Assembly: GCF_019443425.1 (NCBI RefSeq)
Contig: NZ_CP080382.1
Span: 2,852,001 to 2,916,000, forward strand
Source of the DNA: Arthrobacter sp. PAMC25284
Lineage (GTDB): Bacteria > Actinomycetota > Actinomycetes > Actinomycetales > Micrococcaceae
Reading direction: 5' to 3'
DNA: 64,000 bases
The first letter of the stretch is position 1; each line of letters begins with the position of its first letter. The notes under the pieces were generated by a model. That model made no database searches. It saw only the letters and a list, made by a program, of their open reading frames with translations, and was not told where the DNA came from. The position numbers were made by a program, and so were the translations under genes. Shown here one piece after another: positions 19,958-38,981 of the stretch.

Positions 19958-20109
19958 GGGGATCCTTCGAGGGTGGGAACGTTGCAATCCGTGCTGCACA
20001 ACGCCGCGGCCGGGTGCTGTATTCCGCCGGGGGCCTTCGGCCCGCGCGGCAGACCGGCTGACAGCTTCTTCATAGCTGCCGCATAGCCGGCGCCGCTAGC
20101 TTGGGCGCT

Positions 20110-21057
20110 ATGGACCACTTCATTCCGCCCCACCCGCGGCACGATCCCCGGGGAGGGCCGTCCGGGCGGCGGCAGCGCGAGCCGGGAACCCGGTTTCGCG
20201 CGCCTATCATCACCGCCTGTGCCGCGGTATGCGCGGCGGTACTGGCCGTGGTGCTGGCCGCCGGACTCCAAGCCGCACCAGAGGCCGGCGCGGCATCGGC
20301 GGGCCTGTCAGCGGAGAGCCTGTCAGCGGCCGGATCCTCAGACTTCACTGGGCAGGCGGCGGGGGACAGCCTCGACCCGGACCTGGCCGCGGAGATCAAC
20401 GGGATCATCGACGCCAACAGCCAGTACCAGATCGGCGTGGCGCTGATGGACCTGTCCGGCGGAGCGGTTCAGCAGTACGGCGTCGAGGCGGAGTTCGTGG
20501 CCGCCAGCACCGCAAAAGTCCTGGCCGCCGAGGCGTACTTCCATCTGGTCGAAATAGGCCGCGCGTCGCTGGACGACACCCTGGGAGCCTACAGTGCGGG
20601 ATTCCAGCTGCAGGCGATGATCCAGGCGAGCAACAACGACTCCTGGTCCCTGGTCATGTCCGCCGTCGGCCTCCAGGAACTCAGCGACTATGCCGCGTCG
20701 ATCGGGGTGGACTATCAGCCCGAAACCAACACGCTGACCCCGGCGGCGATGGCCCGGATCCTGGCCGGGCTGTATTCCGGCGCGCTGCTCAATTCGGACC
20801 ACACCGCGCAGCTGCTGTCCTATCTGCAGGACACCAACTACGAGACACTCATCCCGGCTGCGGTCCCCGCCGGCGTCGAAGTCTTTCACAAGTACGGGCT
20901 GCTCGGCGGAAACCTGCACGACGCCGCCGTCCTCACCCATGACGGCAGGGCGTACGCGCTGGTGATCTACACCAAGGGTGAGGACCTGAGTGACCTGCCG
21001 GAGCGGACCGCAGTCTTCCATGCCGTGGCCGGGGCAGTGGCGGATGCGCAGTTCTAG
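20110..21057 (+). CDS. Secreted or membrane-anchored serine hydrolase, class A beta-lactamase-like
   Basis: 315 residues from the ATG at 20110. An N-terminal hydrophobic segment (about 31-52) acts as signal or anchor, followed by an Ala/Ser linker. The penicillin-recognising fold shows S133-T-A-K136 as the nucleophile motif, S174-N-N as the second motif, and HKYG in place of KTG. It is closest in style to the PF13354 beta-lactamase-like enzymes, which may be esterases or cell-wall enzymes rather than true lactamases. A paralogue sits at 37846-38781. Confidence 0.82.
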   Translation: MDHFIPPHPRHDPRGGPSGRRQREPGTRFRAPIITACAAVCAAVLAVVLAAGLQAAPEAGAASAGLSAESLSAAGSSDFTGQAAGDSLDPDLAAEINGIIDANSQYQIGVALMDLSGGAVQQYGVEAEFVAASTAKVLAAEAYFHLVEIGRASLDDTLGAYSAGFQLQAMIQASNNDSWSLVMSAVGLQELSDYAASIGVDYQPETNTLTPAAMARILAGLYSGALLNSDHTAQLLSYLQDTNYETLIPAAVPAGVEVFHKYGLLGGNLHDAAVLTHDGRAYALVIYTKGEDLSDLPERTAVFHAVAGAVADAQF

Positions 21058-21113: not shown

Positions 21114-22133
<1,020 letters not shown>

Positions 22134-23065: not shown

Positions 23066-24010
23066 TTATCCTCTCGCGAAAGTGTGGGCCCACACCGCGA
23101 GGGCGTGGTAGATCGGGATGCCCAGCAGGACGTTGAACGGGAAAGTAATTCCCAGCGATGCTGCCAAGGACAGCGTGGGGTTGGCTTCCGGCACCGAGAT
23201 GCGCATGGCTGCCGGCACCGCGATGTAGGAAGCGCTCGCGGCCAGCGTCGCCAGCACGGCTGTGCCGCCGATGGACAGGCCAAGGGCCCAGCCCAGTCCG
23301 GTCCCGACGAGAGCCGAGAAGAGCGGCATGCCAATTCCGAAGGCGATCAGGAAGAGGCCGTACTGGCGCAGGCTGCCCACCTGTGTTGCCGTAATCAGGC
23401 CCATCTCCAGCAGGAAGAGGGCCAGGATCCCCTTGAAGAGATCGAAGAACAGGGGCTCGATCGAGGTCAACCCCTCGGGCCCCGCGATCCAGCCGATCAG
23501 CAGACCGCCGAGGAGCAGCACTATCCCTTTGCCGAGGAACACTTCATGGGCGATCGACTTCCACCGGGTCTGGCGCGAGAGTCCGCGGGCCAGAACGATT
23601 CCCACAATGATGGCAGGCACCTCCAGGAGTACCAGCAGGAGCGGCATGTGCGCCTCGAACTCAATTTGACGGCTGCCGAGGTAGGCGATCACGACGGCAA
23701 AGGTGCCGACGCTGACCGAACCGTAGTGGGCCGCGATGGACGCCGCATCGGCCCGCTTGAAGCGGCCGAGGAATCGCAGCACGGGGAAGGCGGCCAGGGT
23801 GAGGAAGAAGCCCAGCGCCACCACGGCCAGCATCTGGGGCAGGAGGTCCATAAACGGCTGTTTGGCGAGTTCAATGCCGCCCTTGAGGCCGATCGAGAGC
23901 AGCAGCACGATACTGACGAGCTCGTAAACCGCCGCAGGAAGTCGCAGCTCCGACCGCAGCAGGCCGGCGGTGGCGCCAAGCAGGAAGAAGAGAATGATGG
24001 GATCGATCAC
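23066..24010 (-). CDS. SbtA-family sodium-dependent bicarbonate (or related anion) permease
   Basis: 314 residues from a GTG at 24010, with about ten membrane helices in two repeats, each with a Gly/Ser-rich crossover (AAHYGSVSVGTFAVVIAYL and LAASASYIAVPAAMRISVPEANPTLSLAASLGITFPFNVLLG). The second element, with IAVPAAMR and the GITFPFN turn, is typical of SbtA. Cyanobacterial SbtA is a high-affinity Na+/HCO3- symporter; the substrate in a heterotroph may be bicarbonate for carboxylases. It is the first gene of a two-gene operon with the SbtB-like regulator. Confidence 0.85.
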   Translation of the reverse strand: MIDPIILFFLLGATAGLLRSELRLPAAVYELVSIVLLLSIGLKGGIELAKQPFMDLLPQMLAVVALGFFLTLAAFPVLRFLGRFKRADAASIAAHYGSVSVGTFAVVIAYLGSRQIEFEAHMPLLLVLLEVPAIIVGIVLARGLSRQTRWKSIAHEVFLGKGIVLLLGGLLIGWIAGPEGLTSIEPLFFDLFKGILALFLLEMGLITATQVGSLRQYGLFLIAFGIGMPLFSALVGTGLGWALGLSIGGTAVLATLAASASYIAVPAAMRISVPEANPTLSLAASLGITFPFNVLLGIPIYHALAVWAHTFARG

Positions 24011-24071: not shown

Positions 24072-24113
24072 ATTAATGCACGCTTTGTGATTCACGATCA
24101 AGAATTCGTGTAT
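24072..24113 (-). promoter_or_regulatory. Promoter and operator candidate for the sbtA-sbtB-like operon
   Basis: On the minus strand TTGATC (24101-24096) and ATTAAT (24077-24072) are 18 nt apart, a plausible -35/-10 pair 60 nt from the start. Overlapping the -35, 24090-24097 and 24106-24113 form an 8-bp inverted repeat with one mismatch (ATtCACGA/TCGTGtAT). The short A/T-rich stretch contrasts with the surrounding GC. Confidence 0.45.
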
Positions 24114-25279
24114 TACATTACGTAATAACTTTCGCTGAGCGTCCGCACGCGCACGAGGTAGTCCCCGGCGTCGGGCCCCCACGGCGGGCGGAAGGCGTAG
24201 AGGCAGGCCAGCCGGACACGGGTGGCTGCCGCGTAGGCGGCGAACCGCTCCGGGCTGACGCGCAGCTGTTCGGCCACGGCCAGGATGTGGCCATGGGCGA
24301 TCCGGTACCGGCGCACTGTCAGCCGGTGTTGGAGGCGGCGCAGCTCCAGATGGACGTCGAGGTTGGCCAGGTCCAGGGCCGGCTCGGCGATGCAGCTGCC
24401 GTCAAAGTCCACCAGTCCGGGCGCGCCGGGCCCGCCGGAGGACAGCAATTGCTTGTCATGCAGATCCCCGTGCGCCCAGGCCGGCGGATCCGGACGGGAG
24501 GAGACCAGCAGGCCGACGGCATGATCCCTCTGTGCGAGAAGTGCTGCCCGGGCCTGGGACGCCTCCGGAATACCGTCGCTGTGGGTCAGCCAGTGGCCGG
24601 TCCAGCGTCGGAGTGTGTCGACCTCGGCTCCGGCCGGGTGCTCCGGCAGGGCAACCGCTGTTGTGCGCAACGCCCGGCCGGGTGCCGCCCGCGCTGCCGT
24701 GACCCAGGCCCGCGACCACGCACCCCACATCGCCGCGTAGCCGGCCTCGGTCACCGTCGTATGATCCTGCCCCAGCTCCAGGTAAGACCGGCCGGGAATG
24801 CTGCTGAAGACCACCACATCGGACCACGAGGCCAGGAGGCGCGGGGTGTCGAAGAAGCCGCCGGCCAGCACGTCGGCGGCGCTGGCATGGCTTTCGGCGA
24901 CCCGAAGGCCGTAGCCGGGTCGGAGCACCTTGATGTACCGGTCTCCAGCGTGGACGACGGCGCGTTTATGCGCCCGGTGCACCACGACCTCGCCTCCGGC
25001 CGCCGCCGCTGCGAGCGAGGGGAGCCGGGGATCGGCGAGCGGAACGAGACTGAACATGCCGTGCCGCACGTGACCCGCGCGGACGCCCGCTGCCGCGCGT
25101 CCGCGCTTCGCGGCGGGGGCGTCCGGCGGTGTTTCAAAGCCGGGTGATGCAGGGGCCGGGCGCGGAACGACCTCCACGCTGTATTCGCCGGCGGACTTCT
25201 CCGGCCACGCCCTGCGGACCTGCCAGAGTGCCCCAGCCGCGTCGGTGAGCTGCAGCGGAATGTCCGGGTGCCAGCTCAT
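24113..25279 (-). CDS. Aminoglycoside phosphotransferase-fold kinase (second of two)
   Basis: 388 residues. The C-terminal half carries the APH/choline-kinase catalytic loop AHGDLHDKQLL (Asp near 268) and the Mg-binding LVDFDGSCIAEPALDLANL. The N-terminal half has a nucleotide-binding lobe with HAGDRYIKVLRPGYGL. It is the last gene of the six-gene overlapping operon, and its ATG overlaps the stop of the other kinase by 4 nt. It probably phosphorylates a small hydroxylated molecule such as a sugar. Its place with glycosyltransferases and an exporter suggests the product of that pathway. Confidence 0.82.
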   Translation of the reverse strand: MSWHPDIPLQLTDAAGALWQVRRAWPEKSAGEYSVEVVPRPAPASPGFETPPDAPAAKRGRAAAGVRAGHVRHGMFSLVPLADPRLPSLAAAAAGGEVVVHRAHKRAVVHAGDRYIKVLRPGYGLRVAESHASAADVLAGGFFDTPRLLASWSDVVVFSSIPGRSYLELGQDHTTVTEAGYAAMWGAWSRAWVTAARAAPGRALRTTAVALPEHPAGAEVDTLRRWTGHWLTHSDGIPEASQARAALLAQRDHAVGLLVSSRPDPPAWAHGDLHDKQLLSSGGPGAPGLVDFDGSCIAEPALDLANLDVHLELRRLQHRLTVRRYRIAHGHILAVAEQLRVSPERFAAYAAATRVRLACLYAFRPPWGPDAGDYLVRVRTLSESYYVM

Positions 25280-26562
25280 CGGACGAGCTCGGCGGCCCGG
25301 TCAAGATGCCGCCCGATGGCTTCGGCCCAGTCCGCGGCACGATCCCGGAACGGGTCGACGCTGTTGCAGAAGAGCCGCCAGGCTGCCCAGACCGTGACCG
25401 CGGCGGGGTCGAACCGGCCCCCGGCATCGCTGTAGCCCTCGAGGAGGTCATCAGTGACCGGGCCGGGCCCGGGATCTGCCTGCCACCGGCGGATTTCCTC
25501 GACGGCGGCGAAGGACCCGAGGTCGGATTCCGCGGCTCCGTAGCGGGCGCGGTCGAAGTCAATCAGGCGGACGTCGGCGCCGCTGACCAGCACCTGGTCT
25601 GGGGAGAAGTCGCCGTGGATCAGGACGGGCGCCACGCCGGCCGTGACGTCCTCCAGCCGGCGGCGGAGCCGGGCGGCCACCCGGGCGGCGGGCGCTTCAA
25701 GGTCCGGGACCAGCGCCGCGACCATACCCAGGGTGGCTGCCAGCTGGTCCGGGGCTTCCCCGCGCGGAGCCCCGCGCACAGCGCCGGGCCCAGCGCCTGC
25801 GCCGGATTCCGGCCCGGTGATGCCGTGGAGGGCGGCGAGGGCATTGCCGGCGTGCCGGGCGCTCAGCGGGGTGCCGCCGCCCGCCAGGTCCCCGTTGCCC
25901 CAGGCCGGGCTGGCGCGGGTGCCCCGGCGGGAACAGTGGGCGTCGCCGAGCCAGGGCAGCACGGGCACCCTCTGGGCCTGCAATCGCTCGTGCAGCCACC
26001 TCTCGGCGGACTCATTGATCGGCTGCGCGGCGGTCTTGATGACGATCGCGGCCCCCGGGGCCGGCTCCAGCAGCACGAGACGGCGCTCCGGGTTATAGCG
26101 GAGGACCTGGGCGGTCCCGTCGAGGAGTTCCCCGGGCCGCGGCACTGCGCCGAGCCGTCCCAGGCCGCGCTGGGCGAGCCAGCGCAGGTTCTTGCGCAAT
26201 GCCCAGTCGTCCGCGGCACTGCCGACGGCGATGAACGCGTCCCGGTTCAGCGGCTCGGGATGGAGGAACCGGATCCCGCCGCCGTTTTGGGCCGAGTCGG
26301 CAGCCCGGCCGGCCAGTTTGGCGCCGGGGTCGGCGGCTCTCGTGACGGCCCAGCCGTGGTCCTCGCTGCCGTCGCGGGTGCGGACGAAGGCAACGAGCAC
26401 GGATGTGTGGGGCTTGTACCGGACCCGGGTGATGCGGACGTCCTCGCCCATGAGCTCGGAGAGCCGGCCGTCGTCGAGCACGGCAGCGAGGCACGGCAGG
26501 TCCGGGTCGCGGCCGGCCAGGGAGAGGTCCGCGTCCTGCGAGCGGGTCTGCAAGGCGCTCAC
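25276..26562 (-). CDS. Aminoglycoside phosphotransferase-fold kinase (first of two)
   Basis: 428 residues. An N-lobe with ITRVRYKPHTSVLVAFV and a second strand set (RLVLLEPAPGAAIVIKTA) lead to the catalytic loop LIHGDFSPDQVL (near 314) and LIDFDRARYGAAESDLGSF, as in APH enzymes. It overlaps the exporter upstream (4 nt) and the next kinase (4 nt). It shares the fold but little sequence with the downstream kinase, so the pair probably acts on different positions or substrates. No acyl- or aminoglycoside-specific residues can be assigned. Confidence 0.82.
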   Translation of the reverse strand: MSALQTRSQDADLSLAGRDPDLPCLAAVLDDGRLSELMGEDVRITRVRYKPHTSVLVAFVRTRDGSEDHGWAVTRAADPGAKLAGRAADSAQNGGGIRFLHPEPLNRDAFIAVGSAADDWALRKNLRWLAQRGLGRLGAVPRPGELLDGTAQVLRYNPERRLVLLEPAPGAAIVIKTAAQPINESAERWLHERLQAQRVPVLPWLGDAHCSRRGTRASPAWGNGDLAGGGTPLSARHAGNALAALHGITGPESGAGAGPGAVRGAPRGEAPDQLAATLGMVAALVPDLEAPAARVAARLRRRLEDVTAGVAPVLIHGDFSPDQVLVSGADVRLIDFDRARYGAAESDLGSFAAVEEIRRWQADPGPGPVTDDLLEGYSDAGGRFDPAAVTVWAAWRLFCNSVDPFRDRAADWAEAIGRHLDRAAELVR

Positions 26563-28457
26563 GTCCGCGCCCCGACACTGCCCGGCATGTCATCAGGGAT
26601 ATCTTCGGGGATGTCCGCGGCCCGGGGTCCGGGCGCTTCGCCCAGCCATTTGAAGAAGCGGCTCTCCGGATCCCGCAACAGCTCCAGCGGCTTGCCCTCC
26701 TCGAGGATGCGGCCGTCCTCCAGCCAGATCACCCGGTCGCACAGCCGCGCGGCGAAGGCATCATGGGTGATCGTGATGGAGGTCCGCCCGCGGGTGAGGA
26801 CGTCCAGGGCATCCAGGATCGATTCGCGGGACGCCGGGTCCAGCCCGGCGGTCGCCTCGTCAAGGATGATGATCGGTGCCTGCCGCAGGATGGCGCGGGC
26901 GATCGCGAGCCGTTGGCGCTGACCGCCCGAGAGGTCCTTCGCGGCGTCCCCCAGGACGGTGTCGTAGCCCTCGGGCAGGTTCCGGATGAACGCGTCCGCC
27001 TGCGCCAGCACGGCCGCTTCCTCAATGTCCTCATCCGGTGCATCGAGCCGCCCGAACCGGATGTTGTCCCGGACCGTGGTGCCGAACAGGACGGAGTCCT
27101 GAAGCAGGATGGACACATGGGACCGCACCGATGCTGTCTGCAGGTCCCTCAAATCCTCGCCGCCCACCCGGACCGTGCCGGAGGTGGGGTCGATCATGCG
27201 CAGGACGAGGCTGGCCAGGGTCGACTTCCCGGCGCCGGAGGGCCCCAGGATGGCCAGGTGTTCGCCGGCCCGGATCTTGAGGTTGATCCCGTGCAGGACG
27301 GTGGTTCCCTCGCCGTGGCCGGCATAGACGTTGTCGAACTCGATGTCCGGGTTGCGGCTGGCGAGCGGGCGCGCATCGGGCGCCTCCGGGAGGTCCGTCT
27401 GGGCCTCCAGCAGATCCGCCACGCGCTCGCCGGAAGCGGTGGCGCGGGCGATCCTGCTGGTTTGCTTCGCCAGGTCCTTCAGGGGCTTCATCCCGGTCTT
27501 GAGGTAGGTCAGGAAAATGATTAGGTCACCCGGGGTGATCGAATGGTCCAAAATACGCATGCCGCCGCCGGCCAGGACCACGGCGATGGCGACGCCGATC
27601 AGCACGTCGGTCCGGCGCTCCAGGCTGGCTGCCAGCCGTAGCGCCACGACGCCGGTTCCCAGCGTCGCGCTGTTCGTGCTGCGGAAGTTGGAGCTGATGG
27701 TGTCCTCGAGGCCGTAGGCCTGGACCTCCCGCATGGCCCCGAGGGTCTGGGCTGCCGTGGTGGCCAGTGCGCCTTCACCGGTGCGGGACATACGGGCGGC
27801 TTTCCTGATGGGGCCGGAGCTTCGCCGCGACAGGAAAGCGAACACGCTGGTGGTCACGATCACCACGAGGGCCAGCAGCGGATCGAGCCAGAAGAGGATG
27901 CCGGTCATCGCAACCAGGGTGACGGAATTGCCCAGCAACGGCATGCCGGCGGTGGTCGCGGCTTCCTGCAGGCGCGAGACATCGCCGACCAGCCGCTGAA
28001 CCGTGTCCCCGGTCGAGGCGCGGGTGTGGTGCCGCATGGACAGGCCCTGGACATGGCGGAAGGTGCGGGCCCGGAGGTCAGCGGCGACCCGGGAGCCGAC
28101 GAGGGCGAACGAGATTGCGGTGTAGTAGGTGGCAACGGCGCGCAGGAGGCTGATGACCACGATCGCCCCTCCGCACAACAGCATGGTCCCCAACCCGGCC
28201 TCGAGCTTGGGCCCGGGGCGATGCAGGTCGGCGCCGAGCGCCCGGGACGCTGCATCGATAACGAGTTTCACTGGCCATGGTTCCAGCAGCCGGAAAAAGA
28301 CGTCGAAGGCCAGGGCCGTGAAGCCGCTGGTGATCAGGAACCGGTGCCCGCGCAGGTGGGGGCGGACGCAGCGCAGCGTCCGGCGGAGGCCCGACGGGGG
28401 TGTGGCCGCCTTGCGGCGCGGCCGCCGTCCAAACCGGCGGGTCCTTGCCGCTTTCAT
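26559..28457 (-). CDS. ABC exporter half-transporter (membrane domain + ATPase)
   Basis: 632 residues. A basic N-terminal tail precedes about six membrane helices (about 40-330). The ATPase has Walker A GPSGAGKST, Q-loop SILLQDSVLFG, signature LSGGQRQRLAIARA, Walker B IIILDEATAGLD and switch ITHD. All catalytic residues are intact, so it should work as a homodimer. It is of the MsbA/lipid or glycoconjugate exporter type. Placed between the glycosyltransferases and the kinases with 4-nt overlaps on both sides, it probably exports the cluster's glycosylated product. Confidence 0.9.
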   Translation of the reverse strand: MKAARTRRFGRRPRRKAATPPSGLRRTLRCVRPHLRGHRFLITSGFTALAFDVFFRLLEPWPVKLVIDAASRALGADLHRPGPKLEAGLGTMLLCGGAIVVISLLRAVATYYTAISFALVGSRVAADLRARTFRHVQGLSMRHHTRASTGDTVQRLVGDVSRLQEAATTAGMPLLGNSVTLVAMTGILFWLDPLLALVVIVTTSVFAFLSRRSSGPIRKAARMSRTGEGALATTAAQTLGAMREVQAYGLEDTISSNFRSTNSATLGTGVVALRLAASLERRTDVLIGVAIAVVLAGGGMRILDHSITPGDLIIFLTYLKTGMKPLKDLAKQTSRIARATASGERVADLLEAQTDLPEAPDARPLASRNPDIEFDNVYAGHGEGTTVLHGINLKIRAGEHLAILGPSGAGKSTLASLVLRMIDPTSGTVRVGGEDLRDLQTASVRSHVSILLQDSVLFGTTVRDNIRFGRLDAPDEDIEEAAVLAQADAFIRNLPEGYDTVLGDAAKDLSGGQRQRLAIARAILRQAPIIILDEATAGLDPASRESILDALDVLTRGRTSITITHDAFAARLCDRVIWLEDGRILEEGKPLELLRDPESRFFKWLGEAPGPRAADIPEDIPDDMPGSVGART

Positions 28458-29632
28458 TGCATCACCACCCGGCGGGCGGGCGGCAGTGCCGCCGTGATTT
28501 TGGTGAGCACGCCGGTCCAGCTGAACCGCTCCACGGCATCACTCCGGGCCTGGGCCCCCAGCCGTTCCCGCAGTTCGGGATCTGCCCCGAGCCGGGTGAG
28601 GGCGGCGGCCAAGGGCACCGGCTCCCCGGGCGGCACCAGGATCCCGGTGCGGCCGTCGTCGAGGATCGTCGGGATCTGGCCCACCGCACTCGCGATGATC
28701 GGCATGGCGGCCGCCATGTACTCGTAGACCTTCAGCGGCGAAAAGTAGTCGTCCCGGCCGGGGGTGTCCGGCGGGTAGGGGGCGGCCGCGGCGTCGCAGC
28801 CGGTCAGGAGGCCCGGGACGGCCGCCGGCGGAACGGCGCCGGTGAAGACAGTCTCCACACCAAGCGACGCGGCGAGTGCCTTGAGTTCGGCCCGGCCGGG
28901 TCCGTCGCCAATAATCAGCACGGTCCAGCGGCGGTCCGGTGCGTCCGTCTGCCGGTTGGCCAGGGCCACCGCCTGCAGGAGCGCAGGGAGCCCGTGCCAT
29001 GGCTTCAGGGTGCCGACAAACGCCACCGTCAGGTGGCGGGGGTCCCGCCGGCCGGGCCGTCGGGCGGTGACCCGGCCGGCGTTGACCCCGTTCGGTACCA
29101 GTACCGTGCGGGCGGCCGGCACCCGGCCCCGCACCCAGCGGACCACAGGTTCCGAAACGCAGGCGACGACGTCGGCCGTGCCGGCGTTGATCCGGAGGAC
29201 CGTTTCGGCTTTCTTGACGTCGAGCAGTTCCCGGTACCGGAGTTGCTCTTCGATGAGCGGGGCGTTGACTTCGAGGACCGAGGGGACGTTGAGGATCCGG
29301 GCGACGACCGACAGTGCCGGGCTGAACAGCGAATACCGCTCGTAGACCAGCCCGCACCCGTGCCGCAGGACCTCGTCCGCGAGGGCCAGTGCCGCGTCCT
29401 GGACGGCGCGCTCCCTGGCCTCGCCGCCGGGGGCGGTGGTGACGGGCGGGACCTCGACGACGGCGAGGTCGGCCAGGTCGGCGGGCCGGTCCGGGCCGAG
29501 CCGGGAACAGTAGACCGTGACGGCGGCGCCGGACTGGCGCCAGGCCCGGACGATCTCCTGGACATGGACCGAGGAACCCTTCGTTCCGAAAACTGGGACT
29601 CCCGGGTCCGCGCAGAGGTAGGCGACGCGCAT
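28454..29632 (-). CDS. Glycosyltransferase family 4 (third of three)
   Basis: 392 residues from the ATG at 29632, which shares one base with the upstream stop (TGATG). The GT-B fold is visible: N-domain MRVAYLCADPGVPVFGTKGSSVHVQEIV, linker NGVNAGRV, the C-domain donor site IGDGPGRAELKALA, then KVYEYMAAAMPIIAS (family-4 E-x7-E-like region) and DGRTGILVPPGE. It transfers a sugar from an activated donor. It is followed by the exporter with an ATGA overlap. Confidence 0.88.
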   Translation of the reverse strand: MRVAYLCADPGVPVFGTKGSSVHVQEIVRAWRQSGAAVTVYCSRLGPDRPADLADLAVVEVPPVTTAPGGEARERAVQDAALALADEVLRHGCGLVYERYSLFSPALSVVARILNVPSVLEVNAPLIEEQLRYRELLDVKKAETVLRINAGTADVVACVSEPVVRWVRGRVPAARTVLVPNGVNAGRVTARRPGRRDPRHLTVAFVGTLKPWHGLPALLQAVALANRQTDAPDRRWTVLIIGDGPGRAELKALAASLGVETVFTGAVPPAAVPGLLTGCDAAAAPYPPDTPGRDDYFSPLKVYEYMAAAMPIIASAVGQIPTILDDGRTGILVPPGEPVPLAAALTRLGADPELRERLGAQARSDAVERFSWTGVLTKITAALPPARRVVMQ

Positions 29633-30852
29633 CACGCGACCTGCCGTTCCGGGCGGCACAGGGACCGCAGGACCGCGGCCTGGCGGTGGACGTCGAACTC
29701 GTCCTCGATCAGGGTCCGGGCGTTGCGTGCCAGGGTGGCTCGGTCGGTGCGGGGGGAGCCGAGCTGCAGGATGGCCCGGGCGAGTGCGTGCGGGTTCCCC
29801 GGCCGGACGAGGACACCCGTCCGGCCGTTCCGGATCACTTCCGGGATTCCCGTGACGGTTGTGCTGATGCAGGGCACGCCGGTGGCCATCGCCTCCAGCA
29901 GGACGGTCGGCATGCCGTCCGCGTTGCCGTCGGCGCCGACGACGCAGGGGGCGACGAAGATGTCGGAGGAACTGAGCAGATCGTGGATCTGGTCCTGGGT
30001 TTGCGCGCCGATCAGGCTGACGTGGCCGCCGAGGCCGAGCCGCGCAATGTCGGATTCGAATTCCCCGGCCAGTGTGCCTGTCCCGGCGATGCGGAGGTCG
30101 AAGCTGAATCCCTGCCCCAGCAGTTCGGCCGCGGCCGGGAGCAGATGCTGGAAGCCCTTTTTCTCGACAAGACGGCCAACGGCGGAAATGCGCACCGTGC
30201 TGCCGGGGGACTTCGGCTCGCGGTACGGGAAGCGGGCCAGTTCCAGGCCGTTCCGGACCAGATGGAGCCGGGAGGTGGACGCCGGGAAACGCCGGCGCAG
30301 GTAGTTCAGGTTGAAGCTGCTGATCGTGATGGCGTGGTGGGCTTGTTCGAGCTTGGTCCGCAGGTCCTCGTCGACGACGGGTTCACGGAAGATGTCCACG
30401 GCGTGAGCGGTGAACGAGTAGGGAATGCCGGTGATGGCCGAGGCCAGCCGGGCCACGCTGGTTGCGACGGAGGCGAAATGGACGTGCATGTGCCGGATAT
30501 TGCGGCCCTGCAGGGCAACGGCGAGGTTGATGGCCTGGGCGGCGTCATCGGCGGTCGCGGCCGCGAGATCGGCGAAATTCCTGGCCACCGCCCCGGTGAG
30601 ACCGGCCGCCTCGGCCATCCTGAGGCTCTCCCACAGATCAATGGTTTTGGTCGGACGCTCAATGTACGTCACCGGCGCCTGGACCCGGGCCAGTTCGTGA
30701 TGGAAGCGTGGATCGTTGGGCGGGCGGAGCGAGAAAATTTCGATCCGGTCCCCGGCGGCCTCGCGGGCCAGGATCTCCGAAACGATGAACGTTTCGGAGA
30801 AGCGCGGGTACATCTTCAGGACGTAGGCTGTCCCTGTTTCAGACGGCGACAC
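29632..30852 (-). CDS. Glycosyltransferase family 4 (second of three)
   Basis: 406 residues from the GTG at 30852. GGAGGAGG sits 6 nt upstream, inside the end of the previous gene, which it overlaps by 14 nt. N-domain: YVLKMYPRFSETFIVSEILA, typical of family-4 enzymes of exopolysaccharide clusters, and HMHVHFASVATSVARLAS. C-domain: RISAVGRLVEKKGFQHLLPA and the retaining GT4 motif PTVLLEAMATGVPCIST. It probably extends the same glycan as its neighbours. Confidence 0.88.
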   Translation of the reverse strand: MSPSETGTAYVLKMYPRFSETFIVSEILAREAAGDRIEIFSLRPPNDPRFHHELARVQAPVTYIERPTKTIDLWESLRMAEAAGLTGAVARNFADLAAATADDAAQAINLAVALQGRNIRHMHVHFASVATSVARLASAITGIPYSFTAHAVDIFREPVVDEDLRTKLEQAHHAITISSFNLNYLRRRFPASTSRLHLVRNGLELARFPYREPKSPGSTVRISAVGRLVEKKGFQHLLPAAAELLGQGFSFDLRIAGTGTLAGEFESDIARLGLGGHVSLIGAQTQDQIHDLLSSSDIFVAPCVVGADGNADGMPTVLLEAMATGVPCISTTVTGIPEVIRNGRTGVLVRPGNPHALARAILQLGSPRTDRATLARNARTLIEDEFDVHRQAAVLRSLCRPERQVA

Positions 30853-32053
30853 GGCCGGCCTCCTCCATCGCTGGTGCCGATGAGGCACTTTCGGCGGCAC
30901 CCACGAGCGGTTGCAGCAGCTCGGCCGCCAGTTGGGGGACCCGGATCAGCCCGTTCAGCATGGCCCGGCGGCGGTCCACTGTGGTGCCGAGCCGTGCGGC
31001 CAGCCAGCCGGCCAGGATGTCGGGGGTCAAGGTGCTGATTTCCTGCTGTTCGAGGTAGCCGGCTTTGACCATGGACGCGGCCCGGATGCGCTGCTCCGCA
31101 CGGGCTTGTGTCCGCGGGACGAGCAGGGCCGGAACGTCGGTGCTCATGATCTCGCACACTGTGTTGTAGCCGGCCATCGAGACCACGGCGGCGGCGTGGC
31201 GGATGTGGAAGACGACGTCGTCCACGGCGGCGACAACCTTGACGCCGGGCCGTGCCCGGCGGCGCAGGTCATCGAGTTGTTCGGCGGGCATCTGCGGTCC
31301 CGCGACAATCAGGTGGCCCAGCCCCGGGGGCACCGGGGCGGCGGCCGCCATACTGGCCAGGGCATACCCGTCGGAGCCCCCGCCGACCGTTGTCATGAAA
31401 TAGGGTCCGGGCATGCAACTCGTTCCGGAGATCGAGGGCCGGCCTGCGGCCAGGTATCCGGTGTACCGGATCAGCTTTCGCAGCGAGAACGGAATTTCCC
31501 CGGCCGCCATCGGGTCGTGGATGCTCGGGTCCCCGTACACCCAGATCGCGTCGAAGAGGTCCTTGACGACCCGCGGACCGCCGCAGCGCGCCCATTCGGC
31601 GAAGGCGGTCTCCGGATCGTCCAGGACTTCGCGGAGGCCCAGCACGATCCGGACTTGCCCGCCGAGGCGGGTCCGCCGCAGGGCCGTTTCAAGCTCGTGG
31701 TGGATCCCGGTGGCGTGGCGGTCCACGATCACCAGGTGCGGGTGGAATCCGGCCAGGGTCGCCTGGAGCAGAGTGGCGCGCAAGGACACGAGTTCGCGCA
31801 TCGGCACGTCAACGTTCCGGGGCTGGTAGCCGCCGGGGCCTTTGGAGACACCCGGGATCAGGACCCAGTCCCACCCTGCCGGCGCCTGGAACGCGGGCGC
31901 CTGCGCGGTCCCCGTGATGAGAATGCCGGTCACCGGGCGGCCGGTGAGGACCGGAAGCTGGTTGTTCAGGGCGTGGGCCAACGCAAGGTTGCGGCGGACG
32001 TGGCCAAGGCCTACCGAGTCATGTGAGTAAAGCACGATCCGCATGGCCTCCAC
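30839..32053 (-). CDS. Glycosyltransferase, MurG/GT28-like (first of three)
   Basis: 404 residues from a GTG at 32053 with GGGAGGAAC upstream; MRIVLY three codons later is an alternative. The N-terminus RIVLYSHDSVGLGHVRRNLALAHAL is characteristic of MurG/GT28-like enzymes that act on lipid or small acceptors. The C-domain has IVAGPQMPAEQL, DDVVFHIRHAAAVVSMAGYNTVCEIMSTDVPALLVPR, the donor-binding loop. As the promoter-proximal gene it may start the assembly. Confidence 0.85.
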   Translation of the reverse strand: MEAMRIVLYSHDSVGLGHVRRNLALAHALNNQLPVLTGRPVTGILITGTAQAPAFQAPAGWDWVLIPGVSKGPGGYQPRNVDVPMRELVSLRATLLQATLAGFHPHLVIVDRHATGIHHELETALRRTRLGGQVRIVLGLREVLDDPETAFAEWARCGGPRVVKDLFDAIWVYGDPSIHDPMAAGEIPFSLRKLIRYTGYLAAGRPSISGTSCMPGPYFMTTVGGGSDGYALASMAAAAPVPPGLGHLIVAGPQMPAEQLDDLRRRARPGVKVVAAVDDVVFHIRHAAAVVSMAGYNTVCEIMSTDVPALLVPRTQARAEQRIRAASMVKAGYLEQQEISTLTPDILAGWLAARLGTTVDRRRAMLNGLIRVPQLAAELLQPLVGAAESASSAPAMEEAGRVAV

Positions 32054-32144
32054 GACGTTCCTCCCCCACGGCCCGGCGGCTGCACGGCGTTGTGCCGGTC
32101 GGCGGTGTCCCTGATGTCACTTCCAGTCTGGGACCGCGGGGTGA

Positions 32145-32186
32145 GGGAAGGATGAGCGGAAGATGAAGGATTCCTCATGAGGAATC
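32145..32186 (-). promoter_or_regulatory. Response-regulator-like direct repeat and 18-bp palindrome upstream of the glycosyltransferase operon
   Basis: Two abutting 11-mers, GGGAAGGATGA (32145-32155) and GCGGAAGATGA (32156-32166), match at 8 of 11 bases, the spacing used by OmpR/PhoB-type regulators. Next to them GATTCCTCA-TGAGGAATC (32169-32186) is a perfect palindrome reaching the histidine-kinase stop codon. Both lie 92-133 nt upstream of the first glycosyltransferase. Confidence 0.5.
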
Positions 32187-33726
32187 AGATCCGGATCCCC
32201 GCGTCCTGCAGCGGGATCCGGATCAGGAAGGACGAGCCGTGTCCATATTCGGACTCCACGGCCGCCGTGCCGCCATGGGCCTGGGCGATGGCGGTGACGA
32301 TGGCCAGGCCGAGTCCGGCGCCTTCCTGTCCGCGGCCCGGGTGGGCCCGGCCGAATCGTTCGAAGATCCGCTGCTGGTCCTCGACGGCGATTCCGGTGCC
32401 GTCATCGCGGACCCACAGCAGGAGCGTATCCGCCGCGGCCAGCGGGGCGCCGTCCGGCGCCGTCGGGCCTTCCACACTGCAGCCCAACCCGATGGTCGAG
32501 CCGGGCCCGGTGTACTTGACGGCGTTTGCGGCGAGTTGGACAAGCGCCTGGGTGAGCCGCTGGGGGTCAGCTTCCACGAGGTAGTCGGCAGTTTCGTCGA
32601 GGTGCCAGTTCCGGTGCGCGAGGACATGGACCTTCTCCATGACCTGGTGCAGGAGCGCGCTGGTCCGGATCGGCTCTTTCCGGAGGAAATCGGGATGGCC
32701 GGAATTGGCCAGCAGGAGCAGATCGTCGACCAGACGCTGCATCCGGTCCACCTCGTCCAGGAGCACGTCGCGGGTGGCGATCACATCCGCCGGGTCATCG
32801 ACTGCCACCAGTTCGAGGTGTCCGCGAAGAATGGTGATTGGCGTCCGGAGTTCGTGGCCGGCGTCGTCCAGGAACTGCTGTTGTTGCTGGGCGCCTTCAT
32901 CGAGCCGCTCCAGCATCGTGTTAAAAGTCTTTGCGAGCAGCGTGACGTCGTCCGCCCCGTCGCGTACTTCCACCCGCTGGGTGAGGTCCTCGTGGCTGAC
33001 CACGCGGGTGGCCTCGCGCAAGCGCCGCAACGGATCCAGCAGCCGTCCTGCGATCACGCTCCCGATGGCCGCAGCCGCGAGCAGCGTCCCGAGCGCGACC
33101 AGCACGTAGGTCCGGACCGAGGCGAGGTTGTGTTCCCATTGGTCCCCGGCGTCCCGGCCGACGAGCAGATACGTTGAGGGCGGCCCGGCCGGACTGATCA
33201 GCGGGACCACCACGACCCTGAGCGGACGTCCCGCCAGATCGAACTCGCCGAACGCGGGGCCGTCCGGGTCCCTGAGCCCGGCGGCGGCGGGGAACAGCGC
33301 CTCCATCATGAGTTTGGAGTGCGGGCTGCCTTCCACGGTCCAGGCCACGCCTCCGTTCACGATGCCGGCCATAACTTCATTGCTGCGGGGCTCGATGTCT
33401 TCGGCGACCTCGTGGAGTCGCCTGCTCTCGGAGTCTTTGCTGTTGGTGCCGTTGACGGTCACAATACGCACCAGCGAGGTGGCCTTGTCCAGGATGGCCT
33501 GGTCAATTTTGGCTTCGGTGTCCTCGAACTGGATGGTGAAGGCGATCAGACCGGAACCCGCCAGGCCGGCGAGCATCATGCCCACCATGGCGGCCACCAC
33601 CCGGAAACGCACGGAATGGATCTTTGCGGACCAGCCGGTAGCGTCCTGCTCTGCGGGCCGGGGCGTGATGTCCAGCGGCTCGGGTGTGATGCGGCCTACG
33701 CCGGGCCGGTCTTCGATGGACGTCAC
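32185..33726 (-). CDS. Sensor histidine kinase, OmpR-partner type
   Basis: 513 residues from a GTG at 33726 with AGGGG upstream. A first membrane helix (about 42-66), an extracellular sensor of about 110 residues, a second helix (about 180-205), then HAMP (RLLDPLRRLREATRVVSHEDLTQRV). The dimerisation domain has FLDDAGHELRTPITILRGHLE (His near 290), and the ATPase has N (QLAANAVKY), G1 (RDDGTGIA), F (IFERFGRAH) and G2 (GAGLGLAIV). It follows its response regulator by 22 nt and ends 131 nt before the glycosyltransferase operon. Confidence 0.93.
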   Translation of the reverse strand: MTSIEDRPGVGRITPEPLDITPRPAEQDATGWSAKIHSVRFRVVAAMVGMMLAGLAGSGLIAFTIQFEDTEAKIDQAILDKATSLVRIVTVNGTNSKDSESRRLHEVAEDIEPRSNEVMAGIVNGGVAWTVEGSPHSKLMMEALFPAAAGLRDPDGPAFGEFDLAGRPLRVVVVPLISPAGPPSTYLLVGRDAGDQWEHNLASVRTYVLVALGTLLAAAAIGSVIAGRLLDPLRRLREATRVVSHEDLTQRVEVRDGADDVTLLAKTFNTMLERLDEGAQQQQQFLDDAGHELRTPITILRGHLELVAVDDPADVIATRDVLLDEVDRMQRLVDDLLLLANSGHPDFLRKEPIRTSALLHQVMEKVHVLAHRNWHLDETADYLVEADPQRLTQALVQLAANAVKYTGPGSTIGLGCSVEGPTAPDGAPLAAADTLLLWVRDDGTGIAVEDQQRIFERFGRAHPGRGQEGAGLGLAIVTAIAQAHGGTAAVESEYGHGSSFLIRIPLQDAGIRI

Positions 33727-33748
33727 GGCATCCCCTGTCCGTAGGTCT

Positions 33749-34414
33749 CTAGCCGAGGCGGTAGCCTGCGCCCCTGGCGGTCACGATATGGTCCGGGCCG
33801 ATCTTCTGCCGCAACTGGCGCACATAGACGTCGACGACGTTGGAGGTGCCATCGAAGTCATAGCCCCAGACGTGGCTGAGGAGTTGCTGCCGGCTCAGGA
33901 TCTGTCCCGGATGGTGCAGGAACATCTCGACCAGTGCGAACTCCCGGGCCGAGAGTTCCACTTCTTTCGCGCCGATGCTGACGGTGCGGGTGTGCAGGTT
34001 CAGCTCAAGCGCCCCGTACCGGATGGTGTTCCCTGCTGCCGGATCCCCGCCGTCGGCCGGGCGCAGCCGGAGCCGGATCCGCGCCAGCAGTTCCTCGAAG
34101 CGGAACGGCTTGACCATGTAGTCGTCGGCGCCGTTGTCCAGCGCTGTCACGGTGTCGGCCGGGGCCGCACGCGCCGTCAGGAAGATGACGGGAATTGTGG
34201 CCTGGTTGTGGCGGAGCGCGCTCAGCACGGTGAACCCGTCGAGGCGGGGGAGGCCGACGTCCAGCAGCAGGAGATCGAAGTCGCCGCTGGAAGCGTAGTC
34301 CAGGGCCGTGACTCCGTCCCCGACCACGGTAGGGGCATAGCCAGCTGCCCGTAGCCCCTTCTCAATGAATCGGGAGATGCGGTCTTCATCTTCGGCAATC
34401 AAAATGCGGATCAC
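33749..34414 (-). CDS. OmpR/PhoB-family response regulator
   Basis: 221 residues from a GTG at 34414. The receiver domain has the acidic pair (AEDED), phospho-acceptor Asp52 (LLLLDVGLP), Thr in FLTARA and Lys in DYMVKPFRF. The C-terminal winged helix has the family recognition segment LLSHVWGYDFDGTSNVVDVYVRQLRQKIG. It forms a two-gene unit with the downstream kinase and is the likely regulator of the glycosyltransferase operon, judged from position only. Confidence 0.94.
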   Translation of the reverse strand: MIRILIAEDEDRISRFIEKGLRAAGYAPTVVGDGVTALDYASSGDFDLLLLDVGLPRLDGFTVLSALRHNQATIPVIFLTARAAPADTVTALDNGADDYMVKPFRFEELLARIRLRLRPADGGDPAAGNTIRYGALELNLHTRTVSIGAKEVELSAREFALVEMFLHHPGQILSRQQLLSHVWGYDFDGTSNVVDVYVRQLRQKIGPDHIVTARGAGYRLG

Positions 34415-34560: not shown

Positions 34561-34577
34561 TCTCAGCTGAATCTCAG
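34561..34577. promoter_or_regulatory. TCTCAG-N5-TCTCAG direct repeat upstream of the response regulator
   Basis: Two identical hexamers start 11 nt apart, one helical turn, in the gap before the response regulator gene. OmpR-family regulators bind such tandem half-sites, so autoregulation is possible. Confidence 0.4.
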
Positions 34578-34594
34578 CAAGCGATCCCGCCGGG

Positions 34595-36263
34595 CTATCC
34601 CGTCCGCGGGTCGTAGACCACACCCGCGTCCTGGTGCTGGACCGCCCAGCTGAACCACATCTCGAAGTAGAACGGGATCGTGGTGTTGTCCGGTCCGGTG
34701 ATCTCCAGGTTGCTGTCTGCCTTGGTCAGCGTGACGGTCTTGCCTCCGACGTCGGTGGTGTAGCTCCGGCCGTTCTCCAGGGCCAGCCAGGGCGCGGCCG
34801 CCGGGGTGCCGTCCACGGTGAAGGCGACGAAGATGTCCTTGGCGAAGTACCGGGGATCGTTGAAGCTGGGACGGAAGATGAACCGGTCGTCCTGGTCGTA
34901 GCCGCCGTAGGGGTTGGAGGCGTAGTCGCGCCGGTGGCCGGTATTTTCGCTGAGGATTGTCGCCGAGGGGTGCTGGGGCCTTGATCTCGCCAACGCTCAG
35001 CAGCTGGAATTTGTGCAGCGCGAGTTGCTGGCCGAAGTGGGTGCCGGCGAGGGCTTTGCCCGTGCTTTGCTGCCACAGGGTCTCGGTGCTGCGGTCAAAC
35101 ATCACCAGGTTGCTCTCCAGCAGGGCCCCGCTGACCCCGAAGGTGGTGGCTTCGCCGCCGGGCAGGACGCCTTCGTAGACGATGGCGCTGCCGCACAGCG
35201 GGCAGAACGTCACGGCGACGGGTTCGCCGTCGATGGTGTCGTTGACGATTTCGTGCCAGACCAGGATGTTGTAGGGGTAGGCCTTGATCTCCGTGCTGCC
35301 TTCGAGCAGCAGCGCCTGGACACTGTCCGGCCGGGTGAACTCGGAGACAGGCACAAATGCGGGGTTGTCCAGGGCCGGGATGCCGTCCTTGGCCGGTCCG
35401 CCGCTCAGGACGTTGGCGATGGCGGGATCGGCGCGGCTGAAGTCCGTGGTGGGGAAGGACTGGCGAAGGAAGTTCGGCACGTTGGCGACGTCGGTGCCGC
35501 CGCCGTCGGTGCTGCCGGTGCTGCCGGTGCCCTGCTGGCCTTGGGCCGAGTCGATGAAGCCACGTTCCAACGCCACGGTGCCCAGGAAGCCGCGATCGAT
35601 CAGCCAGGTTTCAATCGTGCGGATCTGGCCGGAGGCGATCAGCAGGCCCACGAGGACCAGGAAGACGCCGAGGCCGCGGCGGAACCTGCCGTTGGGGTTT
35701 GTCGCCCAGCCGAGGCGTTTGGTCACTTTGCGCCCGCCCAGGGCCACGAGCAGCAGGACGGCGGCCAGGCCCACCGTGTACGCGGCGAGGTTGCTCAGGC
35801 CGACGGTGAAGTTGGCCGGGAGGACGGCGGCGAGGATCAGCCCGTAGGTGGGGCTGCAGCTGGTGAAAGCCGGGCCGAGGGAGAAACCCAGCAGCACGTT
35901 GCGGGAGGTCCCGGTGCGGGTCGCCGTGCCGGCGGACAGCCGGCCCGAGGCTTCGTGGAGTTTGAGCCCTTCCGCGAGCCGGTCCCAGATCCGCGGGAAG
36001 GCGAGCGAGGCGCCGATGAAGGCCACCAGGGCCCCGGAGATGATCAGCCAGACATTGCTGGGAACGCCCAGCAGCACGGTGGTGGCCTTGATCAGCAGGG
36101 TGAAGAGCACCACCGAGACGGCCAGGCTGGCGATGATGATGTACGGCGCCCGCCGGTTCTCCTCGGCGGCCGACCCGGCGAGGACCACGGGCAGCAGCGG
36201 CAGGACACAGGGGGAGAGGACGGTGAGGATACCGGCGAGGAACGCGAGGGGTAGGAGCTCCAT
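34595..36263 (-). CDS. CcdA-like membrane domain fused to DUF3179 domain, frameshifted
   Basis: About 556 residues after correction. Residues 1-240 form a CcdA/DsbD-type thiol transporter, with the redox Cys in LSPCVLPLLP and FTSCSPTYG and about six helices. After a Gly/Thr linker, residues about 290-556 form DUF3179: IKAYPYNILVWHEIVND, FCPLCGSAIVYEG, VSGALLESNLVMFDR and, in the next frame, HPSATILSENTG, NPYGGYDQDDRFIF and the WFSWAVQH ending. The frame breaks at the GGGG run 34975-34978; dropping one base restores it. The thioredoxin-like lipoprotein lies 15 nt upstream. It probably carries reductant across the membrane to that protein and to DUF3179. Confidence 0.8.
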
Positions 36264-37845: not shown

Positions 37846-38781
37846 TCAGAGCCCGAACAATGCCCCGGTGATTTCCTGGGTGAGCTGGTGGATGAGGTCG
37901 ATGCGGGCGTCGCTGTCGGCGTCGTCGGGACCCCAGGTGTAGATCACGACGGCGTAGGTGTGGCCGCCTGCTTCGAGCAGGGCGGCGTCGTGGACGTAGC
38001 CTTCGACCACCCCGTACTTGTGGTGGACCGTGATGCCAGGGTCGAGGGCGGCCGGAATGAGGTCCTCGTCGTTGGTTTGCTGCATGTAGCCCAGCAGCTC
38101 CGCGGTGTGTCCGGCGTCGAGCAGCTTGCCCGTGGCGAGCCGCTGCAGCAGGAGCGCCATGTCCTGAGGGGTCAGGAGGTTCTCTTCCGGGTCGTAGTCG
38201 ATGCCGAGGGAGGTGGCGTAGGCGGTCAGTTCGGGGTAGCCGATGTCCCGCATGAGCAGCAGCCAGGAATCGTCGCTGCTGGTGTTGACCATGGCCTGGA
38301 TCTGGAAGGCGGCGTCGAAGGAACCCAACGGGGCGTCCAGGGACTTCTCTCCGGTTTCCACCAGGTGGTAGTAAGCGGCCGCCGTGAGGATTTTCGCGGT
38401 GCTGGCCGCGGCGTAGGCGGCGTCGTCGCCATAGGTCTGCGGTGTTCCGCCGGCGGTGTCCGTGATAGCGACGCCAATCCGGTGGTCGGGGTTCTCTGCC
38501 ACGATCTTCTGGATCCCGGCGGCAGGGTCGACGGCGGTGTGCGGTGCGGCCCCGGGTGCAGAGTCGGCCACCGGGCCGGCGGCCTGCTTCGATTGGCCGT
38601 GCGGCATACCCGCCAGGAAGCCCGACGCCGGAACCGGCCCCGTGCGGACCGCGGCAAAGGTGAGGACGGCGGCCAGGACCAGTAAGGTGGCGGCCAGGGC
38701 CACGAAAGTGTTGCGCCGGCCGGTGCTGGGTCGGTCGTTGCTGGCCGGTGGTGCGGGCCGGTACGGTCCTCGGTAATTCAT
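37846..38781 (-). CDS. Membrane-anchored serine hydrolase, class A beta-lactamase-like (paralogue of 20110-21057)
   Basis: 311 residues. Signal anchor about 24-46, low-complexity linker, then the same fold as the gene at 20 kb, with long shared stretches (TAKIL, YYHLVE, HKYG, HDAALL). The nucleophile motif is S127-T-A-K130. The second motif reads S168-S-D rather than S-x-N, so the Asn used by lactamases and DD-peptidases is replaced. Catalysis may differ, or it may be a binding protein. It converges with the dehydrogenase. Confidence 0.82.
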   Translation of the reverse strand: MNYRGPYRPAPPASNDRPSTGRRNTFVALAATLLVLAAVLTFAAVRTGPVPASGFLAGMPHGQSKQAAGPVADSAPGAAPHTAVDPAAGIQKIVAENPDHRIGVAITDTAGGTPQTYGDDAAYAAASTAKILTAAAYYHLVETGEKSLDAPLGSFDAAFQIQAMVNTSSDDSWLLLMRDIGYPELTAYATSLGIDYDPEENLLTPQDMALLLQRLATGKLLDAGHTAELLGYMQQTNDEDLIPAALDPGITVHHKYGVVEGYVHDAALLEAGGHTYAVVIYTWGPDDADSDARIDLIHQLTQEITGALFGL

Positions 38782-38981
38782 GCGGCGGGAACTTTCGCTT
38801 CAGGCGGGGGTTTCCTTGAACGTTAGCCGCCGCAGCGGCGTTTCCACGGAAGATGACGGGGTGTTCCGGGCCCGGCTGGATTTCCCCGCCTGGATTCCCC
38901 GCCAACGATTGCCCACAGCAACCGGTCGTAAACTGGCTCTCGAACCACTGTGTGTGGGTGGACCCCTGGGCGGGAGGCCGG

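Follow-up and report, generated by a model that had tools for sequence, protein, structure and literature searches.

Gene content and conservation of the locus

The DNA examined here is a 64-kb window (the whole stretch analysed, 64,000 nucleotides) from the soil bacterium Arthrobacter sp. PAMC25284, and the region studied within it, 24113-34414 on the minus strand, harbors six overlapping genes together with genes for a response regulator and a histidine kinase, all in the same orientation. The six genes encode three glycosyltransferases, an ATP-binding cassette (ABC) half-exporter and two APH-fold kinases, which we read as a candidate pathway for the assembly and export of a glycan. The names MurGl, GT4a, GT4b, aphA and aphB were coined in this analysis. 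All eight open reading frames (ORFs) were confirmed at the expected coordinates and strand in the ORF list of the window, and the features of the locus are as follows.

33749..34414, minus strand: OmpR/CopR-type response regulator (221 aa; Pfam Response_reg and Trans_reg_C)
32185..33726, minus strand: sensor histidine kinase (513 aa; Pfam HAMP, HisKA and HATPase_c; H-box His291)
32141..32177, minus strand: predicted operator TGAG-N7-TMAT-N7-TCAT-N7-TCAY (three direct repeats at 11-bp spacing plus an inverted TGAG)
30839..32053, minus strand: MurGl, MurG-like GT-B glycosyltransferase (404 aa; Pfam Glyco_tran_28_C)
29632..30852, minus strand: GT4a, family-4 glycosyltransferase of the EpsE/WcaL type (406 aa from GTG 30852; Pfam Glycos_transf_1)
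28454..29632, minus strand: GT4b, second family-4 glycosyltransferase (392 aa from ATG 29632; Pfam Glyco_trans_1_4)
26559..28457, minus strand: ABCB/MsbA-type half-exporter (632 aa; Pfam ABC_membrane and ABC_tran)
25276..26562, minus strand: aphA, APH-fold kinase (428 aa; Pfam APH; HGDFSPDQ...DFD)
24113..25279, minus strand: aphB, second APH-fold kinase (388 aa; Pfam APH; HGDLHDKQ...DFD)

The initial annotation had described six minus-strand genes overlapping by 14, 1, 4, 4 and 4 nt, and reading the stops and starts in the DNA bears this out. MurGl (starting at GTG 32053 or ATG 32044) overlaps GT4a by 14 nt, with its TGA stop at 30841-30839, the GTG start of GT4a at 30852 and a GGAGGA just 5' of that GTG; the TGA of GT4a and the ATG of GT4b share a single base at 29632, and overlaps of 4 nt join GT4b to the exporter gene (28457/28454), the exporter gene to aphA (26562/26559) and aphA to aphB (25279/25276). 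The chosen gene starts are supported by these overlaps. Pfam likewise agrees with the families and the order proposed there (a MurG-like transferase, two family-4 transferases, an ABC half-exporter and two APH proteins). The six genes form one tightly packed operon, probably read as a single polycistronic transcript, and the link that had been drawn to a two-component system is supported by the OmpR-type regulator and kinase lying upstream on the same strand. Scans for sigma-70 promoters (0 sites vs 0.5 expected) and terminators (8 vs 4.1 expected) were uninformative.

The check suggested in the initial annotation, conservation of the gene order, came out in its favor. Strong MurGl homologues (E < 1e-38) were found in 20 of 119 related genomes, comprising 10 of 73 in the genus (its own included), which protein names place near Arthrobacter/Pseudarthrobacter, and 10 of 46 in other families of the order. 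Of the 19 regions fetched from relatives (locus numbers carry the prefix L), 17 retain MurGl-GT4a-GT4b-ABC-aphA-aphB in this order, one of them with the kinases in a single ORF, and L048 and L049 differ; the order is intact even in L047, where identity to the window proteins drops to about 38% (MurGl) and about 30% (kinases). In the close relatives L031, L032, L033, L034 and L037 aphB is tandem-duplicated, being present as a single copy in the window. A MurGl profile search of genome contigs returned at least 546 encoding stretches, the best 80 of which constitute the named loci, with MurGl called in 78 (not in L084 and L094). These derive from Arthrobacter, Rathayibacter, Cryobacterium, Microbacterium, Rothia, Kocuria, Brevibacterium, Actinomyces, Propionibacteriaceae, Brachybacterium and others, and also include Planctomycetota/Planctomycetales, Phycisphaerales, Gemmatimonadetes and Chloroflexia records. 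The four-gene core MurGl-GT4a-GT4b-ABC is contiguous and co-directional in 71 of the 78; a further co-directional gene follows it in 68 of these 71, an APH kinase in 64 of the 68, and at least two APH domains occur in 56 named loci. The seven loci without the full core comprise five short contigs of 3.4-6.4 kb (L062, L080, L083, L116 and L124), L110, whose GT4b was overlaid by an ORF call on the opposite strand, and L127, which has a different gene order. Fusion into one ORF was observed for GT4a and GT4b in four named loci (L073, L075, L086 and L098) and for aphA and aphB in six (L065, L077, L100, L106, L114 and L115). ORFs of the relatives came from purpose-written callers (one scored by codon-position GC, one taking the longest ORF for regions of at most 60% GC), the family profiles used for labelling were built partly from the labelled loci, and five loci of L050-L129 duplicate loci of L031-L049, so the two sets were kept apart and unsummed.

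The cassette has a wide and patchy distribution that spans four phyla and is not limited to actinobacteria. At E up to 1e-30, MurGl was detected in 18 of 396 evenly drawn genomes of its own phylum, in 33 of 294 genomes of the phylum of L122 (Planctomycetota), in 9 of 150 of the phylum of L126 and in 11 of 201 of the phylum of L117. Among the fetched regions, the core is intact in 15 of the 20 from planctomycetes (taken from the 33 genomes with a match), 5 of 10 from Gemmatimonadota, 5 of 9 from Chloroflexota and 7 of 13 further actinobacterial regions, and the full set including both kinases was seen in each of the four phyla (L125, L150, L172 and L178). Variants also occur, such as the Gemmatimonadota loci L173, L174 and L176, in which the exporter is set among two MurGl-type and two or three APH genes, and the Chloroflexota loci L179 and L182, where the core, a UDP-glucose dehydrogenase, a kinase and a regulator stand in a row without APH genes. 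The genome of the window itself holds another weak MurGl match elsewhere. A plasmid origin was rejected, with only two partial 80-base matches among 72,556 plasmid records, and no MurGl relative was found in viral contigs. For anti-phage defence, PADLOC yielded no specific match, only matches to the ATPase region and the receiver region.

The two-component system and its putative operator

The two proteins encoded upstream form an OmpR-type two-component system, consisting of a HisKA/HATPase kinase with an H-box and a regulator with receiver and winged-helix domains. Hydropathy indicates that two hydrophobic segments of the kinase flank a presumed extracellular stretch of about 135 aa, and in a comparison of operon-linked regulators the winged-helix stretch SNVVDVYV is kept with small variation in other genera. 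Within the genus, a close relative of the kinase (E up to 1e-100) occurs in 6 of 10 operon-bearing genomes vs 1 of 63 others (p = 8e-6, uncorrected for phylogeny), and both kinase and regulator were found in 37 of the 78 named loci. L200, from the same genus, holds a regulator/kinase pair (81% and 63% identity) alone, with neither operon nor motif in 20 kb. Several planctomycete loci have a recurring NtrC-type regulator and kinase upstream of the cassette.

The tandem 11-bp repeat noted earlier between the kinase gene and the operon is real and forms part of a larger operator-like motif. The repeat, TMATC-N5-CTCATC-N5-CTCA, occurs once in the window, with 0 mismatches in a search allowing two, and shuffled controls gave a mean of 0.09 matches and at least one match in 8 of 100 shuffles. 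The full four-element motif has a single occurrence (at most one mismatch) in the 3,883,676-base genome, on the minus strand at window position 32141-32177. When ten close loci were aligned upstream of MurGl, the single conserved block amid diverged DNA was a TGAG followed by three TMAY/TCAY boxes at 11-bp spacing. Of 84 actinobacterial regions upstream of MurGl, the window counted, 33 contain the strict motif, 8 of these matches falling in the ten first-aligned regions and 25 in the other 74; the pattern was written after viewing the ten close loci and weaker matches in others. This count covers the window and L031-L129, with repeated upstream sequences and loci of fewer than 150 upstream bases dropped and nine loci left out (L048, L049, L117 and L122-L127). 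With duplicates removed, 33 of 83 loci have a same-strand match upstream of MurGl (33 matches in all), and a single match falls elsewhere in 1,585,186 bp searched on both strands (34 and one before removal). We regard 32141-32177 as the predicted operator of the linked regulator.

The sole match away from MurGl is in L115, about 250 bases 5' of another exporter gene, which carries its own motif copy. Both Brachybacterium loci L110 and L115 have such a second ABC half-exporter gene upstream of MurGl, and in L110 two UDP-glucose dehydrogenase pieces stand between it and MurGl. The idea that the motif is always paired with an adjacent two-component system was rejected, because motif-bearing loci such as L060, L068, L073 and L075 have none in the fetched stretch.

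Enzyme families and the predicted product

Each component belongs to a familiar superfamily, and none of the six genes reaches the cut-off of any curated NCBIfam model listed, including those of named glycan and lipid pathways (for the exporter and GT4a, among the best 25 matches), in agreement with the earlier statement that no named pathway was known to have this set. MurGl has invariant residues across 15 aligned sequences and matches solved structures of MurG and GT1 enzymes, but it scores 29 bits against the MurG equivalog TIGR01133 (cut-off 250.25). The best model for GT4a is EPS_EpsE (NF041876), an exopolysaccharide transferase, at 206.7 bits and below the equivalog cut-off of 400. The exporter has Walker A, LSGGQ and Walker B motifs, its solved relatives include ABCB1, Sav1866, TM0288 and MsbA, and its closest curated models are MsbA-related, with TIGR02204 first and MsbA next. 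Its scores lie below the cut-offs for MsbA (TIGR02203, 351.5 bits vs 602), NdvA/ChvA (TIGR01192, 219.5 vs 585.4; PRK13657, 265.9 vs 733) and HepA (NF045513, 303 vs 725).

Both kinases belong to the APH-fold superfamily (PF01636 above the gathering score, a catalytic HxD and a metal-binding Asp) and retain intact catalytic motifs. AphA, with an N-terminal extra part of about 115 residues, has His316, Gly317, Asp318, Asp322, Gln323 and Asp335 invariant in 41 sequences (AF2 model pLDDT 93.2), and aphB, with an N-terminal beta part, has Lys117, His270, Asp272, Gln277, Asp291 and Asp293 invariant in 41 sequences (pLDDT 90.6). Neither reaches any NCBIfam cut-off, housekeeping or other, so a match to an unrelated housekeeping family, named at the outset as a possible refutation, was not seen. 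Structure comparison singles out no substrate. For aphA, the highest structural Z belongs to the class V lanthipeptide kinase LxmK (20.5; 3.6 A over 278 residues), tied with methylthioribose kinase (19.6), and the LxmK equivalog NF038156 scores 34.8 bits vs a cut-off of 315; the top Foldseek match is maltokinase (TM 0.43), close to other APH kinases, with N-acetylhexosamine kinase also listed, and maltokinase is not among the best 50 matches in the second structure comparison. The fold matches of aphB include glucosamine kinase and antibiotic phosphotransferases (capreomycin, macrolide and APH).

Genes next to the cassette in other genomes bear on the product. A UDP-glucose 6-dehydrogenase gene is present in 20 of the 78 named loci, co-directional and downstream in 15 (p = 7e-17, assuming a rough 2% positional expectation from the several copies in the own genome); the copies of the Arthrobacter genome itself lie elsewhere than the operon. 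In planctomycetes, the gene after the kinases has, by eye, a signal-like start, and Pfam assigned DUF5666 and Alginate_exp (PF13372) domains in L150 and L160. Homologues of this barrel were found in 15 of the 20 planctomycete regions, 6 of these 15 matches having been profile seeds and the weakest (L159) being the terminal part of a fused ORF. Where the barrel is missing, in five regions, four of these stop within the cassette or shortly after it, and L166, the fifth, is a distant variant. A barrel in this position suggests a product that leaves the cell. A sulfotransferase follows the cassette in L122 and L193, three tandem ORFs homologous to it are present in each of L193 and L194, and a methyltransferase gene stands ahead of the APH gene in L126 and L169. 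We take the operon end to be a putative tailoring position. Large beta-helix proteins recur upstream of the cassette in L150, L160, L165 and other planctomycete regions. Thirty non-core neighbour families occur in at least four loci, each in at most 13; the 20 that were annotated are families of metabolism, regulation or transport with no relation to sugar activation or scaffold synthesis, and one has no Pfam match.

Taken together, we infer with moderate confidence that the locus encodes a dedicated, two-component-regulated pathway for assembly and export of a phosphorylated, probably glucuronate-containing glycan. The sensor kinase would perceive an envelope signal and phosphorylate the OmpR-type regulator, which would bind the CTCATC direct-repeat operator at 32141-32177 and give rise to one polycistronic transcript. 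MurGl, GT4a and GT4b would then use nucleotide sugars to assemble a glycan, short or polymeric, in the cytoplasm. The UDP-glucuronate would come from a UDP-glucose dehydrogenase whose gene adjoins the operon in some relatives and lies at another place in the present genome. As tailoring enzymes, the two APH-fold kinases may phosphorylate the glycan, a role in which they would elsewhere be joined or replaced by sulfotransferases or a methyltransferase. A homodimeric MsbA-type exporter would carry the glycan across the membrane, and in the diderm Planctomycetota the alginate-export-family barrel could take it through the outer membrane. The initial annotation had proposed a glycosylated small molecule or lipid. 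Its operon, its two-component link and its unmatched family set stand, but its product is changed here, as the planctomycete barrel and the UDP-glucose dehydrogenase and sulfotransferase neighbours favor a secreted acidic glycan.

Several observations weigh against this interpretation. Neither a polymerase nor a chain-length regulator nor a lipid-linked initiating transferase is encoded in the operon, which makes a polymeric product conjectural. The core is less uniform in distant genomes, partly owing to cut contigs and partly to real rearrangement (e.g., L173-L177, L184, L193 and L194). UDP-glucose dehydrogenase is near in only the 20 named loci given above; in the additional sets of fetched regions it is near in 1 of the 20 from planctomycetes, none of the 10 from Gemmatimonadota, 3 of the 9 from Chloroflexota and none of the 13 further actinobacterial ones. 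Alginate_exp, a family we take to be broad, is absent from three other planctomycete loci (L122, L123 and L125), and the nearest kinase folds (free-sugar kinases, LxmK, choline-type and antibiotic kinases) have no clear winner. As for regulation, the strict motif is missing from 51 of the 84 upstream regions; of the 11 Brevibacterium loci, most of them with two-component genes nearby, only 2 carry it, and a looser form occurs in only 1 of 84 stretches upstream of two-component genes, so that binding of the regulator to the motif is something we infer.

As neither a polymerase nor an initiating transferase is present, the main alternative is a glycolipid pathway, in which the transferases would add sugars to a membrane lipid (diacylglycerol, phosphatidylinositol or polyprenol). 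The kinases would phosphorylate its headgroup, much as core kinases act on lipopolysaccharide, and the exporter would flip the glycolipid in the manner of MsbA, with the product staying in the membrane. Three transferases would fit a short headgroup, no polymerase was seen in the cassette, and both the curated models and the solved relatives of the exporter include MsbA. However, the barrel ending the operon in most planctomycete regions and the exopolysaccharide transferase model matched, below its cut-off, by GT4a speak against a product retained in the membrane, and we consider this pathway rather unlikely. It is improbable that aphA and aphB are instead sugar 1-kinases (maltokinase- or N-acetylhexosamine 1-kinase-like) that feed donors while the exported product stays unphosphorylated. 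The maltokinase, N-acetylhexosamine kinase and glucosamine kinase matches would accord with such a supply role, as would UDP-glucose dehydrogenase, another donor-supply gene, occupying the same place, but choline, methylthioribose and antibiotic kinases match at similar scores, no sugar-1-phosphate nucleotidyltransferase is among the 20 annotated of the 30 recurrent neighbour families, and tailoring enzymes occur near the same position in other loci. Self-protection by phosphorylation with export of the inactive form, as in streptomycin-type clusters, would match the pairing of exporter and kinase and the antibiotic phosphotransferases among the nearest folds, but a secreted antibiotic-like small molecule is highly improbable, given that the same 20 annotated families include no polyketide synthase, non-ribosomal peptide or cyclitol scaffold family (two are labelled Polyketide_cyc (lipid-transport) or PhzC-PhzF, in a few Arthrobacter loci) and that a four-phylum spread is unusual for such a cluster.

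Relation to known systems and flanking genes

The secreted glycan favored here can be set beside several known systems. NdvA/ChvA, which exports cyclic beta-1,2-glucan built in the cytoplasm, is likewise a homodimeric ABCB-type exporter, whereas the present cassette has no cyclic-glucan synthase and encodes three separate GT-B transferases. The HepA system for the heterocyst envelope polysaccharide shares an ABCB-type exporter, glycosyltransferases and two-component control, and to our knowledge APH kinases are not part of it. Glycosyltransferases, sugar-acting kinases and an MsbA-type flippase are also combined in the pairing of MsbA, the lipid A flippase, with the lipopolysaccharide core kinases, but the kinases here are APH proteins and not members of the core-kinase families. 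In planctomycetes the cassette closes with a PF13372 barrel, as alginate secretion uses the AlgE barrel; unlike that system, however, the cassette lacks an alginate-type synthase, its inner-membrane step is an ABC exporter, and UDP-glucose dehydrogenase is rare near the planctomycete regions. LxmK resembles aphA in structure, but its model score is far under the cut-off.

The component families are known, and the kind of system, bacterial ABC-dependent glycan secretion, is known as well; no description of this gene set was found in the literature reached by full-text searches in which a paper had to contain all or most of the query terms, and none of the curated models applied names a pathway for it. 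Tentatively, the cassette may represent an undescribed class of glycan secretion in at least four phyla, defined by a fixed core with glycan kinases, a phosphorylated (elsewhere sulfated) glucuronate glycan, single-target two-component control and, in diderms, an alginate-export-type barrel. A gene order kept from Arthrobacter, Rothia, Kocuria and Actinomyces to planctomycetes would imply an envelope or matrix glycan with a common job, and the two kinases would then exemplify glycan phosphorylation beyond lipopolysaccharide. With just one operator-like site, the system lends itself to a direct test involving a single regulator, promoter and deletion.

Several genes flank the operon in the window. 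Upstream, a DsbD_TM/DUF3179 gene (34563-36263 and 34595-34993, minus strand) is seemingly frameshifted, as Pfam covers only the first half of DUF3179 in one frame and an overlapping 132-aa ORF in another frame resembles, by eye, the rest. The genes at 38853-42763 (plus strand) look like an ABC half-exporter pair, and other Arthrobacter loci carry similarly sized ABC genes on the opposite strand, at offsets -6 and -7, suggesting that the chromosomal address may be conserved. On the other side, a Sbt_1 bicarbonate transporter gene (23066-24010) separates the operon from an alpha/beta hydrolase gene (21114-22049, minus strand), a close relative of which lies directly 3' of the operon in L031 and L034. 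Two similar proteins that look like secreted serine hydrolases (20101-21057, plus strand; 37846-38781, minus strand) flank the region, and a neighbour family in other loci that resembles them is Beta-lactamase2 (L034).

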